Assembly: GCF_025602895.1 (NCBI RefSeq)
Contig: NW_026516450.1
Coordinates: 1 to 39,763 of the forward strand
DNA length: 39,763 nt
Source of the DNA: Polychytrium aggregatum
Taxonomy: Eukaryota; Chytridiomycota; Chytridiomycetes; Polychytriales
Reading direction: 5' to 3'
The notes below the pieces were generated by a model. It saw nothing but the letters and a program-made list of their open reading frames with translations, was not told the origin of the DNA and searched no databases. Position numbers and translations under genes: made by a program. Shown here in pieces: positions 1,852 through 24,101 of this stretch. Numbering within the stretch: the first letter of the stretch is position 1; each line of letters begins with the position of its first letter.

Positions 1852-3605
1852 ATGCCTGCTGTCTTGGGTCAGCCCGTCTTGACCTTGGCCACCGATGCCG
1901 TCCAGCAGCTGCGTGCCATTGATGAGTCGGATCTCTCGACCTTTTGGGGTGGTACGTCCTGCTGTCCTGGCTCTGAGGGCAGGAAAGAGTGTCGGTGGAC
2001 CAAACCAGACCAAACCAGACCAGACTAGACCGGACTAGACTAGACCAGACTAGACTAGACCAAATCTCTGGGTCGGATGGGTCTACCAGAACCGGCTGTC
2101 GCCTCCATGCCGTGACTCACTCCGCGCTAACTCGGACTGGCTTTCTTTCCTCATCCTCTCCATCGAATGCTGCTGCTGCTGCTGCTCGCATCGGCCCAAA
2201 CCCCATCCTCGCTCCCACTGCTTCATCTTACGTGGACCGCATCCGTCGTCTGAACCACGTCCATCACTCGCTTCCAATTGCCGGAATCACCCTCGCCCCT
2301 TCTTCAGTCATCACCAAATGCAAGGATAACCTGGAAAAGGGCCACCGCCTCGAGAACCTGAGTTGGAGGCTGTGGTACTGTTCCGTGCATCAAAAGGGCC
2401 GCAAGGAAAACGACTTGGCCCAGGCTGTGGCCTCGCTGCCCGAGTACTTCCCCCCCAGAAAGACTCCCACTGCCTCGCCGCAGTCCCTGCCCTGTCGCGG
2501 CGACTCGCTTGCCATCACCAGCCTCGAGTTGCCGTCTTCGAGTCGCTCCCAGCCCGAAACAGCGCCCCAGCCTCGTCCCCATCTTCAAGTCCATGCTCAT
2601 GATCGTCCTCCACCGCAGTCCCAGTTGCAGCCGCAGCCGCAGCTCCTGCCTCAGCTTGACACCGCTCCTGCTCATACCTCCGAGCCCGCTCGGATGATCA
2701 TAGACGTGCGGCCCGAGGTGCTGCCCCTTCCACGCATGCCTCACTCGGCCGACTCCAACACCACCGTTGTCGAACCCTTCGCCCCTCCGGCTCAGCCGCA
2801 GGCTCACCAACAGACTCTCGCCCCTTCCGTGCGGGTAGCCTCCCCTCCAGCTGCTGCCCCCGCTCCTGGTGGTGCCTCGGACGGCAAAGTCAAGTTCTTC
2901 TTCTCGGAAACCAACTCGGAGCGATCGGACGAAGGCGAACCTTCGGACCACCTCGTGGCTGGTCCTGCTACCGCTGCTGCTGCCCGTGCCACCCTGCTAT
3001 CTGCTCCACCGGCTGCTCCTCGCATTCGCCCCACGGTCTTCTCGCCACCACCCAAGCCCAAGCCTGCGGCCTCAGCCAGCCGTCCTCCTGTCCTGGCTCA
3101 CCGGCCCGCTGGCCCCTCTGCTGCGCTCCAGGACGAGGCCGGTCCCGAGTCGGACTACAGCACCGACACCTATGCCGACGACGACGATGACGACTATGAC
3201 GACGACGACGACTTTGACGACGACTATGACGACTACGACGACGAGGATGACCCGCTTGCATCCGGCAGCGGTTCGATCATGTTCGAAAAGGTTGACATCA
3301 CCGACAGCCCCCAGCAGTCGCCCGAAAAGCGGCGGTCGCTGCTCTCGGATGCGCTGCTGCGAACCTCGGCAGGCACCTCGCTGAAGCGAATCAGGACACA
3401 CTCGCGGCTGAATGTAGCCTCGCACGACCACACAGGCGACCCGGCTCCGGTCCAAGACAATCTTCACGCGGACCCACATCTCACTGAGCTGACCGAGAGT
3501 CTCCGGCAGAACCTGATGCACGAGCGCCGCCAGCCCTTCCTGATGTCTCGAAACCCGAGCGCCGCATCAGAGCAGCAAAACTACGAGGACCCCGAGTACT
3601 GGTAG
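1852..3605 (+). CDS. DUF1752-domain (AreA/Reg1-type) regulator
   Basis: Two exons, 1852-1951 and 2308-3605, encode 465 residues. The splice (G|GTACGT to TTCAG|TC) joins FWG to VITKCKDNLEKG, followed by RLENLSWRLW. This rebuilds the fungal DUF1752 signature (about residues 24-55) found at the N terminus of AreA-type GATA factors and in Reg1-like phosphatase regulators. The rest is low complexity: Pro/Gln/Ala-rich stretches, a nearly pure Asp run around residues 321-347, and basic patches. No GATA zinc finger is seen, so a Reg1-like adaptor or orphan DUF1752 protein is more likely than a DNA-binding factor. The role in carbon or nitrogen regulation is inferred from the family. The first ATG after the pyrimidine-rich leader was taken as the start. 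The TAG at 3603 may be intronic (see findings). Confidence 0.75.
1952..2307 (+). other. Intron with short tandem repeats
   Basis: This 356-base intron is long for the window. From about 1993 to 2063 it carries a degenerate array of AGACCAGACTAGACC-like units with a 5/10-base period. The rest contains a CTG run near 2168-2185 but no frame matching the flanking domain. Confidence 0.7.
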
Positions 3606-13443: not shown

Positions 13444-13479
13444 TTGCGGGCCTCGGCCGCATCCCTCTCTTTTTCCCCA

Positions 13480-13705
13480 TCGACCAACTCTAAAGGATCA
13501 TATTTATAGTTAGTCGTCTAGTCTTCGTTTTCCAAACGAGACACACACATCACCGTAGAAGATGAGCCGTTACGCCACCATCATAGCGGGAAGTGCGAAG
13601 TTTCAGTGTCTGGTCTCTTCTCTGAAGGACCCCTGCTTCGGTTGAAGACTGCTCTCGTTCCTGCATCCACAGGACGAGAACGATGGTTGGCGTGGTCTGA
13701 TACGG
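13480..13705 (+). ncRNA. U3: U3 small nucleolar RNA (box C/D)
   Basis: U3 guides early cleavages of the pre-rRNA in the small-subunit processome. The 5' end CGACCAACTCTAAAGGATCA, followed by TATTTATAGTTAGT, matches the conserved U3 5' domain (GAC start, then box A/A' of the type GGATCATTTCTATAGT). A hairpin GTCTTCGTTT/AAACGAGAC follows, as in other U3 RNAs. The box C'-like AGATGAG is at 13560-13566 and a box B-like AGTGCGAAG at about 13592-13600. A box C-like GTTGAAGA (13641) is followed by the stem TCTCGTTCCTG/CAGGACGAGA, and box D is in GGTCTGA (CTGA at 13697-13700). The length of about 226 nt is normal for U3. Both ends are inferred from motif spacing. Boxes B and C are less perfect than A and D. 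Confidence 0.85.
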
Positions 13706-16358: not shown

Positions 16359-16702
16359 GGAGAAACCAAACAAGCAAACGAGCAAACGAGCGAGCGAGCG
16401 GGTGCAGATCAAAGGCACGGCGAGGGATGTGTTGCTGGGCTCGCCTGGATGTGGAATGGAAACCGAAGGCGATGTCACATGTCGGCGGGCCATTCGTCCC
16501 GGCAGTGCCGTTGTCGATGTTTGTGCGAATCGCAACAGGGCGAACGCTCATTCGCTCTTTGTCTGCATCTGTCCTCGGCCTCGAGGTGTCTGCTGCTGGC
16601 CCTCGGTGCCGACCCTTGATATCGACCTTCGAGTCACCACCAACACCAACACCAACACCACCACCACCACCACCACCACCACCACTACGGCCTGTGCCCG
16701 GC
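16359..16702. promoter_or_regulatory. Shared divergent promoter (oxidoreductase / SELENOH)
   Basis: This 344-base gap separates two start codons facing away from each other, so it must contain both promoters unless transcripts overlap. It includes GAGCGAGCGAGCG near 16389-16401 and an ACC-repeat at about 16635-16687 directly before the SELENOH start. No TATA box is obvious and no defined transcription-factor site was recognised. Confidence 0.6.
16635..16687. repeat. ACC / ACCAAC microsatellite in 5' leader
   Basis: Several CACCAA units followed by about ten ACC triplets end 15 bases before the SELENOH start codon, presumably within its 5' untranslated region. Confidence 0.85.
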
Positions 16703-17662
16703 ATGCCCACGCTCCGGGTCGGCTTCCGGCGGGTCTTCTGGATCCTGGTTGCTCTCGTCGGCGTGATGTCGCTCATCGGCTTCATCAGCCTGCGAGACTC
16801 ATCCAGCGACTGGTCAGCCTCGCCGTACCTGTTCCAGGCCCTCAAGCCTGCTGAGTCGCCCTTGCCAACAGAAGCCCCTGCGTCGTCGTCGCTGCTGCCT
16901 CCTCTGGATGAGGATCTGCCTGAAATCCTGCCTCCAGGCACCAAGATGACGATGGACATGCTCAAGTTGCGCTGGGCCGCCCTGCGAGAGGCGCCGCTCC
17001 ACTTTACTATCGAGCACTGGTGAGACTTTGCCGCCGTTTGTCCAAATCTACATGCAGTTGTGTGAGGCCCACGCGCATCTGCACGAAAGCTCCTCTGCCA
17101 GGACGTATGGCGGTGCCGATTTGCAGCCATACCTCTCCCGACGCACTCATTTGGGCATCCACCGGTCCGTCTCCATCTTCACTGCAGCACATCCTGAGGC
17201 ATGTTCAAGGCTGCCTCCGACGCCTTCAGCCAGGTATGCGGCGATGGTTGCCTTGCTCTCGATGGGCTGTGTTCTGTGCTGGCGTCGCCGAGGCCGTTGA
17301 CGCTGACCTCCGATCGGCACTCTGTAATCCTGCAGATTCTGAGAGAAGCTTTCCCCAAGGCCATTATTTCCGTCAACCCCGTCCCGCCTCGCAAGGGTGC
17401 CTTTGAGGTCACCCTCAACGTCGGCAGCGAGGAGGATGGTACGTGGATACTCTCACGATACAGCTCCTGTGCTCGAGCGATTTGCCAATGTGACTTGGCT
17501 GGGCTTGGCTTTGACAGTGCTCTCTCGCTCTCTCGCTCTCCAGACATAGTGGTCTACTCTGGCCTCAACCAGAGAATGGGAAAGTTCCCCAGCAGCGAAG
17601 CGACGTTTGCGGCAGTCGATCAAGGGCTCATGAAGGCTTACAGATCAAAGGCAGACCAATAA
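16703..17662 (+). CDS. SELENOH: Selenoprotein H with in-frame TGA (Sec), membrane-anchored
   Basis: Four exons (16703-17019, 17188-17233, 17336-17438, 17544-17662) give 194 residues with agreeing phases. The first splice, CACTG|GTGAGA to CTGCAG|CACATCC, reads ...FTIEHCTSUG, where U is the TGA at 17195-17197 (codon 109). IEHCTSU is the redox motif of animal selenoprotein H. The following text (FPKAIISVNPVPPRKGAFEV, then VYSGLNQRMGKFP) matches the rest of the SELENOH/Rdx thioredoxin-like fold. If TGA were a stop, the conserved domain would be lost. SELENOH is a thiol oxidoreductase, nucleolar in animals. Here residues about 11-30 form a hydrophobic anchor followed by a 70-residue Ser/Pro linker, so a secretory-pathway or other membrane location is more likely. 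Sec decoding also needs tRNA-Sec, EFsec, SBP2 and a SECIS element; only a weak SECIS candidate is visible. No alternative acceptor restoring a Cys was found. Confidence 0.85.
17195..17197 (+). other. TGA selenocysteine codon
   Basis: In-frame TGA within a 46-base exon, in TGC-ACA-TCC-TGA-GGC spelling C-T-S-U-G. The position equals the selenocysteine of the SELENOH CxxU motif. The protein frame and family similarity continue for 85 residues beyond it. Confidence 0.82.
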
Positions 17663-17825
17663 GGGCGACCTCTAGTGTCGCCCCGACGGCGGCCTGATTC
17701 TATTTGCCATCGTTGGGCTCTCCCTCGGCGAGCCGAGCCCTTTCTCTTGCTCGGCTCCTCTGCTTGCCCTTGGTCGGGGACTGAGCGGCGGCACTCTCGC
17801 CTTCCCAGGTCCCGGACCAACTCAT

Positions 17826-17880
17826 TCTGGAGATGATGGTGTGCTCACTGGAAAACCCTTTGTGGATCTGACGGACCCAA
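17826..17880 (+). promoter_or_regulatory. Candidate SECIS element
   Basis: About 165 bases after the stop, ATGA (17833-17836) is followed 15 bases later by AAAA (17852-17855) at the start of a 7-base apical loop. Downstream GA dinucleotides lie at 17870-17871 and 17874-17875. With GA at 17874-17875 a 15-position helix can be drawn without bulges, centred on TCAC/GTGG, but it has four mismatches and several G-U pairs. With GA at 17870-17871 a 4-base bulge is needed. Geometry fits a form-1 SECIS, but the stem is weak. It lies before the AATAAA signal, as required. Confidence 0.35.
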
Positions 17881-18049
17881 GGACGAGGAATGCTGGTTCC
17901 AGGCCATTTGCTTTGGCCGTTTGGACCAGCAATTGTCTCTGTGTCGGAGACACCTCATTCTTGTTCTGCAGCGGTGGGGCGCCGGAAAATATGCGTTATT
18001 GACTGCTGGCCTGCTCTTGGTCCTCGTTGGGATCGTGCCAGACCAGCGC

Positions 18050-18055
18050 AATAAA
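18050..18055 (+). terminator. Polyadenylation signal AATAAA
   Basis: A canonical AATAAA about 390 bases after the SELENOH stop codon. It would place the SECIS candidate inside the mature 3' untranslated region. Confidence 0.45.
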
Positions 18056-18293
18056 AGAATGGGCGTTTGGCAATGCATCTCAACGACGAGCAAGTGTGTT
18101 CGTGTGCTGGGGGGTGTGGTTCGTCATTTCCACAGCGTCGTGATCACGGCGCATTTTTCTGTCGTCGTTGCCATTGATCTCTTGCTCTCCGATCTTCCAC
18201 CGCATCATCCCATTGCACGTCCGCCCGTCTCCGGTGCCGATCTGTGATTCCGGCTCTCGCTCGCCATCGACAAGTCGCCGTCCCGCATCCGCC

Positions 18294-20703
18294 ATGAGCT
18301 ACATTCCACCCGAAGGATTCAAGCCTCCACAGGCTCTCTCGCTGCCCCGGCAGCCCAAGCGCAAAGACCACGCTCGGAGCAAACCCTCATCGAAACCTGA
18401 TCCATCGCCATCGCCGCAACAACATCAATCTAGCTCGACATCGACATCGTCCTCGGCCGTGCCAACGCCCAATTGGTCTCAGGCGCCTTCCTTTGTGCCT
18501 TACGGCTCGGCCGGCGCCGGTTATCCGTTCCAGACGACTGGCTATCCGTTCCAGACCCACAGCAGCTTTGCAAGCATGCATCTCCAGCCCCAGCTGAGCT
18601 ATGGACTGCCGATACAGACCTATCCGACATATGCCCTGGGATCGCCCGCGACTGGATCTCTGCACCCGTACTATGGAGCCATGTTCCCGGGCGCCCAGGC
18701 TGCTTCGTTCGTGCCTGGCATGGCTGGGACTCCCGCTGGCCATGGAATGACTCTGCCAACAGCGTATCCCGGGTTCTCTCCCGACCCAGTTCCGCACCCA
18801 TCCGAGCCAGAGTCTTCGTGAGTGCTTTCGCTCGTCGCCGCCGCTACCGCTCGCTTTGCAGCCCAAGGCATTTTGCTGGCTTGGATCGTCATGGTGATCT
18901 GCCCGAGCACCCCGACTCCAATGTCCGATCATTGATCGCCTATTGGGCCTCGTATTCTCATCCACGACGGCGACACCTCGGCAGGTTCGACTGCGAGCCC
19001 TGCGACAAATCATTCAAGACCGAGGCGCAGTACAAAAGCCATATCAAAGGACACGTCAAGTGCAAAGCATGCAATTATGAGGCCCTGGCCAAGATCCTGC
19101 TGCTCCATGAAGAGGGCGAGCACGGCCTGGTTAACGGCGTCAAGTAAGCTGCATCCCTCCCTCCCTCCCCTTCATCATCATGCCAACCATGGACAGAGAG
19201 TCGAGCCGGTCGTCCATTGTCGAGATTCGATCGTCAATGGCGGCTTGCTGGTCGCCTATCACTAATTGCCGGGGACCGATCCCGGACTGCCTCCAGGAAA
19301 GCGCCGTTTGTGCCCACCAATACTCCGGAGGAGATTGCATCATGGATCCAAGCCCGCAAGAAGCGATACCCGACCGACGAGAACGTCCGACTGAAAGTAG
19401 GAATCGCTGGCATGGAATGTCGTCCCTTCGCTCATCTCGCCGTTCGCTGGATCGTGTGCTCGTTGCAGAAGCAGTCCGTATCAGCTCATGTGGAGCATGT
19501 GCGCACTACGGTGCCGTTTCGGGTTGCCAGCACGGCTATTCGATCGAGCGTGTCTCTGGCAACAGCGATGGATCGTGTACTTGTTGTGGGTGAGCTCACG
19601 TCGACTTCTTCTCTCGCAGCAACGGCACGAGGAAGAAGAGATCAAGAAGGGCAAGGTCCTCTCGGTTTCCAAACGGAAGATTGTCCAGAAGCACAGCTGC
19701 GAGGCTGATTCCAAGCGATCCAAGACCGAGCCTGAGGTGGGCCATCCAGTTGTGAGACTATCGGGGATATGTTTTGTGCGCTGAGCAAGCATCAAGGACA
19801 GTCCCGGTCGTGCAGTTCTTGGTACCAAGTCGCGGCTCTCGCTGGCCTCCTGGATGGCACCTTTGAATCCGACACTTGCCCCGCCATCGTTGAAAGCGAT
19901 CGAGCAACGTCGTGGCTATGAATGCGAACTAATATGCCGCTATCCCATGTCTCGACAGAGCTCAAAGCCAAGCGACAATCCGCTTTCGATGCTCTCGAGC
20001 TACGATTCAAACGATGAATCGGACGGCAAGAGTAGTTCCAGCAGCAGCGACAGCGATGCAGACAGCGATGATGGCGGCAGTGACAAGGCGGAGATCGACC
20101 AAGGCGACAATGAAGATGACAACAGCGACCGCGACCAGTCTTCCAAACGCAAGTCCTCGGACCAGCGCAAGGACTCTCGTCCAAAGATCAACCGACCCTG
20201 TCGCTACTTTCTGCGTGGCCACTGCCATAACGGCGACAACTGCCGTTTCCTGCACGATCCCAGCCGACTCCGGCGCCCACAAAGCCGTGCTGCTGCTGGA
20301 TCGCAGGGCGCTTCATCAACTTCATCCCCGCACGACAAGCTGAATGCCAAGCCGGGATTGGGAGACGATTCGGTTGCCGCCGCCGCTGCTGCTGCTGTTG
20401 CTGCAGCCGCTGAGCAGAAGCGACGGCCAGGTTTGCTCCGCATGGTAAGTTTTGTGCATGGCGGCAAAGCTTCGGCCCGCTCTGTTCAACCAGCATTGCT
20501 GCCATGGAGATCGAACCGGATGCGCTCAAGATGTGACTCTCGGAGGGCGATGGCTTCGCTCTCGAGACATGCTGCTGGTTGCTTCTAATACTGCATCCAT
20601 ACACTCGATTCAGCTGTTGGAGCAGCAGATTGTGCAAGAAAAGAACACTCTCTTGCAGTGCATCCGATACATTGTCGAGCACGACTTTTTCGGATGCGAG
20701 TGA
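18294..20703 (+). CDS. NUFIP1: NUFIP1/Rsa1-type snoRNP assembly factor
   Basis: Six exons (18294-18817, 18985-19143, 19297-19396, 19620-19736, 19959-20444, 20614-20703) give 491 residues with consistent phases. NUFIP1 (Rsa1 in yeast) works with the R2TP/HSP90 machinery to assemble box C/D snoRNPs and, in animals, other L7Ae-type RNPs including SBP2. Domains in order: a Ser/Pro/Gln/Tyr-rich N terminus; a C2H2 finger (CEPC...HIKGH, about 177-197) followed by a second CKAC pair; the NUFIP core (PTNTPEEIASWIQARKKRYP then TDENV, about 233-258); a basic/acidic linker with DNPLSMLSSYDSNDESD; a CCCH finger (C-x7-C-x5-C-x3-H, about 379-397); an Ala run; and the C-terminal helix LLEQQIVQEKNTLLQCIRYI ending in VEHDFFG, also family-typical. 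Expected location is nucleus/nucleolus. It is co-directional with SELENOH. Confidence 0.88.
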
Positions 20704-23147: not shown

Positions 23148-24101
23148 TACAGTCTATCCAGAAAGAAACGGGACAGTCACTTTCTGGCTTCAAATGTCTG
23201 AACCCCGCTGACTGACTGTAGGCCCCAGCGAGCAAGCCGTGCGATTGTTTCCCGTCCTGGTTGGCAATCTCTTTGTTTTGGTTGGTTTGCGAAGCATGGT
23301 CTTGAATACACCCGGCCGATCTCCTGTGGCGATGATCGACTGGCATACCGAGATCATATTCCTGGCTGCATTGACGTCTCGATCCCACAGCGTATGGCAG
23401 CTTGCACAGCTCCGGACAAAGTGTGGTTTCTCGATATCAAGATGCTCGACCTTCTCGAGTCGCTTGGCTTCCCGACAATGTGACCACACCTGGGATGTGT
23501 TGAACTCGTTCACCGAGCACACATGGATCTTGGAGACGGATCGGTCTGGTGGTCGTCTCTGGTGGTGGGTGAACTGCTCAAAGTACTTGGCAAACCTGAG
23601 TCTCCTGGGACTGGATGCATATCCCCTCCCTTGCTTCCACGAAGCATTCCCAAAGGCAATCACCACTTCGGTCTCCTTTGGTGCCTGGTTGATGACTTGC
23701 TTGCACATCTCGTGGACAGCGCGCTGTCGCTTGCCGTAGAGATCGAGTCGCTTGAATCGCCGTCGCCGGGTCAGGCTGAAGTACAGCTGTTTGTCCAGCA
23801 TGTCTCCATCGAACACATGGCGAATGTATTGCGGGAAGGAAGGCACTCCAGGGATCTTGGGACTTGGTGTGGTGCTCATCCATTTCTGCAGACCAAGGAT
23901 CTTGTGGGTGCTCTGGATCCACTTGGTCGCCTGGGTGGTGCCTTTCACTTGCGGTGAACCATCTGGCGAGAAAATAGCGACGATGGCTGGTTCTGCCCTT
24001 GGGGAAGAAAAATTTTCCTCAAAACCAGCGCATTTTGGGCTGGCAGAGATACTGCGCAGTGGCGTCCTTGATTCAGATCCAGAAACGCATCGCTCGCTCA
24101 A
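23148..24101 (-). mobile_element. Fanzor-type (eukaryotic TnpB-like) nuclease, copy A, 5' part decayed
   Basis: A minus-strand frame of 303 residues (24101-23190) ends in a Fanzor RuvC half. Visible landmarks: QYIRHVFDGDMLDKQLYFSL, KRLDLYGKRQRAVHEMCKQV, VVIAFGNASW, the RuvC-II motif VNEFNTSQVWSHC with its Glu at codon 23507-23505, and SCASCHTLWDRDVNAARNM with zinc-finger Cys pair and RuvC-III Asp. Fanzors are RNA-guided DNA nucleases spread by transposons. The usual RuvC-I DPG motif and a full N-terminal half are not visible, so this is probably a truncated or decayed copy. The first Cys of the TSxxCxxC motif is Trp. Homology with copy B covers 23890-23148 and ends just past a 30-base hairpin. 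No transposase is present nearby. Confidence 0.8.
23158..23187 (-). repeat. Fanzor copy A 3' hairpin (possible omega-RNA end)
   Basis: Read on the minus strand, CCAGAAAG, a 14-base loop, then CTTTCTGG forms a perfect 8-bp stem immediately after the frame's stop. The same 30 bases recur after copy B, followed in both by GACTGTA, the last shared bases. Confidence 0.8.

Follow-up and report, generated by a model that had tools for sequence, protein, structure and literature searches.

An in-frame UGA predicted to encode selenocysteine in a SELENOH gene of the chytrid Polychytrium aggregatum

The primary report of selenocysteine (Sec) in fungi is that of Mariotti et al., published in Nature Microbiology in 2019. 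According to the portions available of other articles, Sec is used by nine fungal species, seven of which belong to the Harpellales (PMC10386755; the number of nine is also given in PMC10778597), six Sec fungi are named, including Gonapodya prolifera and Bifiguratus adelaidae (PMC7988114), and Zancudomyces culisetae possesses the essential Sec machinery and SelenoH, with RNA evidence (PMC12611240). The available text of PMC11378755 places the nine species in Chytridiomycota, Zoopagomycota and Mucoromycota, so that a member of Chytridiomycota sensu lato is already counted among the Sec fungi. The 2019 result has also been questioned: no U was found among 7.15 million fungal proteins, as stated in the accessible part of PMC7988114, nor in 134 proteins whose annotation includes the term, as stated in that of its companion article (PMC8559351).

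The DNA analyzed here (hereafter, the window; 39,763 nucleotides) corresponds to contig C166 of the 64.7-Mb genome of Polychytrium aggregatum (Chytridiomycota, Chytridiomycetes, Polychytriales). A preliminary description, made from the letters of the window, had attributed it to a fungus, which agrees with the NCBI protein name and taxonomy of this chytrid, and had mentioned earlier reports of Sec in early-branching fungi, as is indeed found in the available text of PMC10386755, PMC12611240 and PMC7988114. Polychytrium is not among the fungi named in the part of PMC7988114 at hand, and no report of selenocysteine or selenoproteins together with Polychytrium was found among the five best-ranked of 3,323 open-licence papers. 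Early-branching fungi that use Sec and possess SELENOH have therefore been described before, and the novelty lies in the order Polychytriales, for which no report was found. Compared by description only, the locus resembles that of the Harpellales, exemplified by Z. culisetae, in joining SelenoH and Sec machinery in an early-branching fungus (PMC12611240, available text), but P. aggregatum belongs to a different phylum; likewise compared by description only, it shares with G. prolifera and B. adelaidae the presence of Sec machinery outside Dikarya (PMC7988114, available text), although Gonapodya is classed as Monoblepharomycota (PMC11378755, available text) and Polychytrium belongs to the Chytridiomycetes.

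The window carries a probable SELENOH gene whose in-frame UGA, which takes the second of the two redox positions in the CxxU motif, almost certainly specifies Sec and is predicted to be decoded by the standard eukaryotic route (Table 1). The spliced product comprises 194 residues, with a size of about 21 kDa from Met 16703, encoded by four exons, and its frame, ...HFTIEHCTS-UGA-GMFKAASDAFSQILREAFPKAIISVNPVPPRKGAFEVTLNVGSEEDDIVVYSGLNQ..., contains no stop from Met 16703 to the terminal TAA other than this single UGA, which corresponds to residue 109. The codon of Cys106 is split, with its first two bases at the end of exon 1, and exon 2 completes the motif C106-T-S-U109, surrounded by the residues I-E-H-C-T-S-U-G-M-F-K. 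Splicing of the sequence reproduced what the preliminary description had claimed, namely four exons with the borders of exon 2 exactly as proposed, the reading IEHCTSUG with TGA at U, and downstream exons that stay in phase.

Table 1. Features of the SELENOH locus of P. aggregatum, in positions of the window.
Feature	Position	Strand	Details
SELENOH exon 1, coding part	16703-17019	+	From Met 16703; NCBI model BJ171DRAFT_90035 reads through
Intron 1	17020-17187	+	168 nt, GT..AG
SELENOH exon 2	17188-17233	+	46 nt, completes C-T-S-U (CxxU)
TGA codon, residue 109, read as selenocysteine (predicted)	17195-17197	+	Spliced frame, family match, both alleles
Intron 2	17234-17335	+	102 nt, GT..AG
SELENOH exon 3	17336-17438	+	Splice; junctions in NCBI model
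Intron 3	17439-17543	+	105 nt, GT..AG
SELENOH exon 4, coding part	17544-17662	+	TAA stop 17660-17662
Candidate SECIS stem, SELENOH 3'UTR	17807-17906	+	AUGA 17833-17836, AAAA 17852-17855, GGAC 17881-17884; not statistically secure alone
AATAAA, possible polyadenylation signal	18050-18055	+	Read from sequence

A second allele was found on contig C79, with 3310 of 3339 aligned positions identical and 23 occupied by gaps. The alleles show no difference in any of the four SELENOH exons or in the stretch 17807-17905. Within 16401-18320 they differ by two indels upstream of the gene, of 3 and 15 nt, and by a 1-nt indel in intron 1. Since the TGA is present on two contigs with identical exons, a sequencing error at this codon is unlikely. 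The 15-nt difference lies in a CAC-rich repeat (16656-16670), just 5' of the SELENOH start.

In the public annotation, SELENOH is split into two unconnected proteins exactly at the UGA. The first, BJ171DRAFT_90035 (160 amino acids, partial), uses the junction between exons 1 and 2 and ends with ...HFTIEHCTS, directly before the UGA; the second, BJ171DRAFT_581501 (84 amino acids, Rdx domain), begins with MFKAAS, at the Met two codons past the UGA, uses the exon 2-3 and exon 3-4 junctions and reaches the end of the protein. The expectation that standard annotation would call the gene as two fragments is thus literally true, and together both NCBI models use all three splice junctions. These models also bear on the possibility that the exon with the UGA is alternatively spliced and that the main transcript, omitting or replacing exon 2, encodes no Sec. 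Although such a reading would fit the small size of this exon, whose length is not a multiple of three, it is exceedingly unlikely: skipping of the 46 nt would break the frame, retention of intron 1 would stop translation immediately (CAC TGG TGA), and the borders of exon 2 are those used by the two public models. The split constitutes a clear case of database mis-annotation and, because the annotated protein is interrupted at this codon, proteome surveys such as that in the available text of PMC7988114 are blind to Sec here.

Assignment to the SelW/T/H (Rdx) group relies on two profiles that match the same residues of the spliced product (102-181), across the UGA and including the CxxU motif: TIGR02174 (CXXU_selWTH; 52.1 bits against a cut-off of 34.2, E = 6e-14) and PF10262 (Rdx; 43.2 bits against 22.6). 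The IEHCTSU spelling and the VNP..P.RKGAFEV block resemble SELENOH and may point to this subfamily within the group; animal (human) SELENOH likewise has IEHCTSU, and its Rdx domain shows the same order. Searches with the full protein and with the domain alone returned matches only from P. aggregatum itself. Solved structure 2fa8, which we take to be a SelWTH-type protein, matched only at E = 0.36-0.49. The sole solved-structure matches below E = 0.1 were designed Pizza repeat proteins (best 0.00027, residues 146-187), which were judged a chance resemblance. A thioredoxin-like oxidoreductase role would be expected for a protein of this family.

The chytrid protein differs from its animal counterpart, a soluble nuclear protein, in an N-terminal extension of about 80 residues with a strongly hydrophobic segment, encoded in 16703-16800. 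Residues 11-29 show a mean hydropathy of 2.51 and are preceded by RVGFRR, while windows starting after residue 35 reach a maximum of 0.59. Should translation begin at Met 16703, a membrane anchor is probable, with the CxxU domain lying across the membrane, and the hydrophobic N-terminus would speak against the nuclear or nucleolar location that is a trait of the SELENOH subfamily. Alternatively, a start at Met 82 (ATG 16946) would remove the segment, and the protein would then be soluble and as long as SELENOH usually is. The partial NCBI model BJ171DRAFT_90035 continues 5' of Met 16703 with no start codon.

Six dedicated Sec components were sought in the genome (tRNA-Sec, SepSecS, PSTK, EFsec, SBP2 and SPS2, with SECp43 outside this set), and all six were found, which excludes that the whole Sec machinery is absent. 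A tRNA-Sec gene scoring 68.3 bits (gathering threshold, 47) is present on two contigs, and ARAGORN assigns it the anticodon tca. Five further matches fell below the cut-off, and one of them (L003), checked with ARAGORN, is a tRNA-Ser; weak matches mean little, because all 14 control genomes match the model at E<=0.001, with only 5 of the 14 exceeding the cut-off. SepSecS is a multi-exon gene on contigs C1 and C406, and its NCBI protein (P0002), which contains STDKNFMVPVGGA, reached 602.7 bits against 224.85. Contamination was considered as a source of the machinery genes and dropped, as NCBI assigns this SepSecS protein to P. aggregatum.

The remaining components were recovered from multiple exons or domain matches. 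For EFsec, all four matches to domain IV (contigs C223 and C374) were above the cut-off, and the GTPase part scored 280 bits to solved eEFSec versus 117 to the best EF-Tu; the piece joined by eye from its exons, which is incomplete, gave 145.7 bits with NCBIfam selB, below the cut-off of 242. Nine matches were obtained in the L7Ae search, two of which (contigs C190 and C169) read AKRRVICGLREVQKHMKRGKVKCLIVSKN and VSVVGVLGYDGADEEYQEML and had SECIS-binding protein 2 as the sole solved protein at E<=0.01 (E = 3.9e-16). PSTK was detected on contig C24 with 30.7 bits, which rose to 55.9 bits (E = 4e-15) with further exons; this incomplete piece, also joined by eye, remains below the curated cut-offs of 382 and 290, and at E<=1e-5 it matches two PSTK families and nothing else. 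SPS2 exons lie on contigs C408 and C77, none of them above the cut-off singly, and once joined by hand they scored 234.5 bits against a cut-off of 125. The first exon reads FTQWAEMKG-UGA-GCKVPQETLLKWL (..AEMKG-UGA-GCKVPQET..), with the in-frame UGA at positions 1124-1126 of the reverse complement of L029 (contig C408). In animal SPS2, Sec occupies this position. By its sequence, SPS2 is a second UGA-containing gene of P. aggregatum, with the UGA at the catalytic position. The six components and this second UGA gene support, at the level of sequence, the earlier proposal that the organism decodes Sec.

With these components, seryl-tRNA[Sec](UCA) would be phosphorylated by PSTK and converted by SepSecS with selenophosphate supplied by SPS2, and EFsec would deliver the resulting Sec-tRNA after its recruitment by SBP2, which would bind a SECIS in the 3'UTR. 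Alternatively, leaky termination or a suppressor tRNA could place a standard amino acid at the UGA, and no Sec would be made. No specific support was found for such a readthrough, and its probability is practically negligible, given the placement of the UGA in the CxxU motif of a matched family and the presence of a dedicated Sec apparatus.

Decoding of the SELENOH UGA as Sec would involve a SECIS, and the 3'UTRs of SELENOH and SPS2 were scanned for such elements. A strict hairpin scan detected no SECIS in the SELENOH 3'UTR and one element in SPS2, whose score of -26.2 was lower than that of any of 200 random window segments (best, -23.8). A looser scan of the SELENOH 3'UTR up to the AATAAA at 18050 accepted one element, with a long outer stem, whose score was reached by 763 of 2979 random 400-nt segments; in the same scan the SPS2 element scored -22.8, with 53 of the 2979 segments at -22 or lower. 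Helix II of the SELENOH candidate is no better than shuffled sequence (matched by 3277 of 5000 shuffles) and its helix I is marginal (325 of 5000 as good). For the SPS2 candidate, 9 of 5000 shuffles equalled helix II, which makes it exceptional, and 3260 of 5000 equalled helix I, which is unexceptional. The SPS2 3'UTR displays AUGA..AAA..GGAC with eight perfect pairs (GCUCAUUG/CAAUGAGC), and the SELENOH stretch folds with -26.3 kcal/mol in a SECIS-like conformation versus -28.3 kcal/mol without constraint.

Both 3'UTRs have in common GAGAUGAUG..CUGGAAA..GGAC. The pattern GATGATG-N6-14-TGGAAA-N20-50-GGA, chosen after both elements had been seen, occurs 13 times in the 358,976 bases examined, a sum that includes both strands and loci that overlap, and every occurrence corresponds to the SELENOH or the SPS2 element. 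Local alignment of both 3'UTRs revealed no significant likeness: of 2000 shuffles, 430 scored at least as high, as did 342 of 1471 segments of the window. The Rfam SECIS model had no match for SELENOH at E<=10, nor for the SPS2 3'UTR; this model may not fit here. The SELENOH 3'UTR element is accordingly presented as a candidate SECIS, and it is from sequence that we infer its function and the actual reading of the UGA as Sec.

The insecurity of this SECIS, together with the NCBI annotation that ends the protein at the UGA, would be in line with an ordinary stop codon, either in a decaying selenoprotein gene of a lineage that is losing Sec or in a gene whose only product has 108 residues. This interpretation is nevertheless very unlikely. 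The frame beyond the UGA remains open, correctly spliced and family-conserved up to the TAA, the exons are intact in both alleles, and all the Sec components sought are present, along with an SPS2 gene in which another UGA occupies the catalytic position. Decoding as Sec is thus the preferred reading of the SELENOH UGA.

An in-frame UGA was seen in SELENOH and SPS2 alone; the other families looked at were GPx, MsrA and thioredoxin reductase-like proteins, and more such genes may exist. Six genome matches were obtained for GPx, and the two genes read (L062 and L064) have Cys and no Sec. One of the two MsrA copies was read and has Cys in GAGCFW, with no Sec. The TXNRD search gave 13 matches, none above the cut-off; the C-terminal ends of two were read, and the best thioredoxin-reductase-like gene ends with ..IHPTAAEELVTMR-stop, without a Sec tail, presumably as in glutathione reductase. 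A genome search for Rdx, blind to short exons, found nothing; since the SELENOH gene of the window was also missed, absence of other Rdx genes cannot be inferred.

A broader picture can be put forward, which as a whole we regard as tentative and rather doubtful. In it, P. aggregatum would represent Sec decoding within the Chytridiomycetes proper, with SPS2 and SELENOH making up a very small selenoproteome and the whole apparatus kept for one effector. This SELENOH would be membrane-anchored by an N-terminal signal-anchor, and so would not share the nuclear compartment of its animal counterpart. The SECIS elements of P. aggregatum, with the sequence blocks common to both 3'UTRs, would be of a type missed by the Rfam model.

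Of 2595 SepSecS relatives, the 120 listed include two named fungi, P. aggregatum and Hyaloraphidium curvatum (P0003, 58% identity), and the latter is likely a further candidate for Sec decoding. No report from 2019 on of selenocysteine together with Hyaloraphidium was found among the three best-ranked of 2,523 open-licence papers. As a chytrid from a different order, equipped with the apparatus and two UGA genes, P. aggregatum widens the basis of nine species given in the available text of PMC10386755, and would favour the view of fungal Sec as an ancestral trait lost repeatedly and not a local oddity. If it can be grown with 75Se, P. aggregatum would provide a testable fungal Sec system.

Other features were observed elsewhere in the window. 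An open reading frame of 303 amino acids (23193-24101, - strand) has a Cas12f1-like TNB domain (PF07282, 37.2 bits against 26.3) and resembles a gene for a Fanzor/TnpB-type nuclease, here of a chytrid. A U3 snoRNA gene (69.8 bits) lies at 13479-13705 (+ strand), and the open reading frame at 1989-3602 (+ strand) contains a GATA_AreA nitrogen-regulator domain (PF08550, 44.6 bits).
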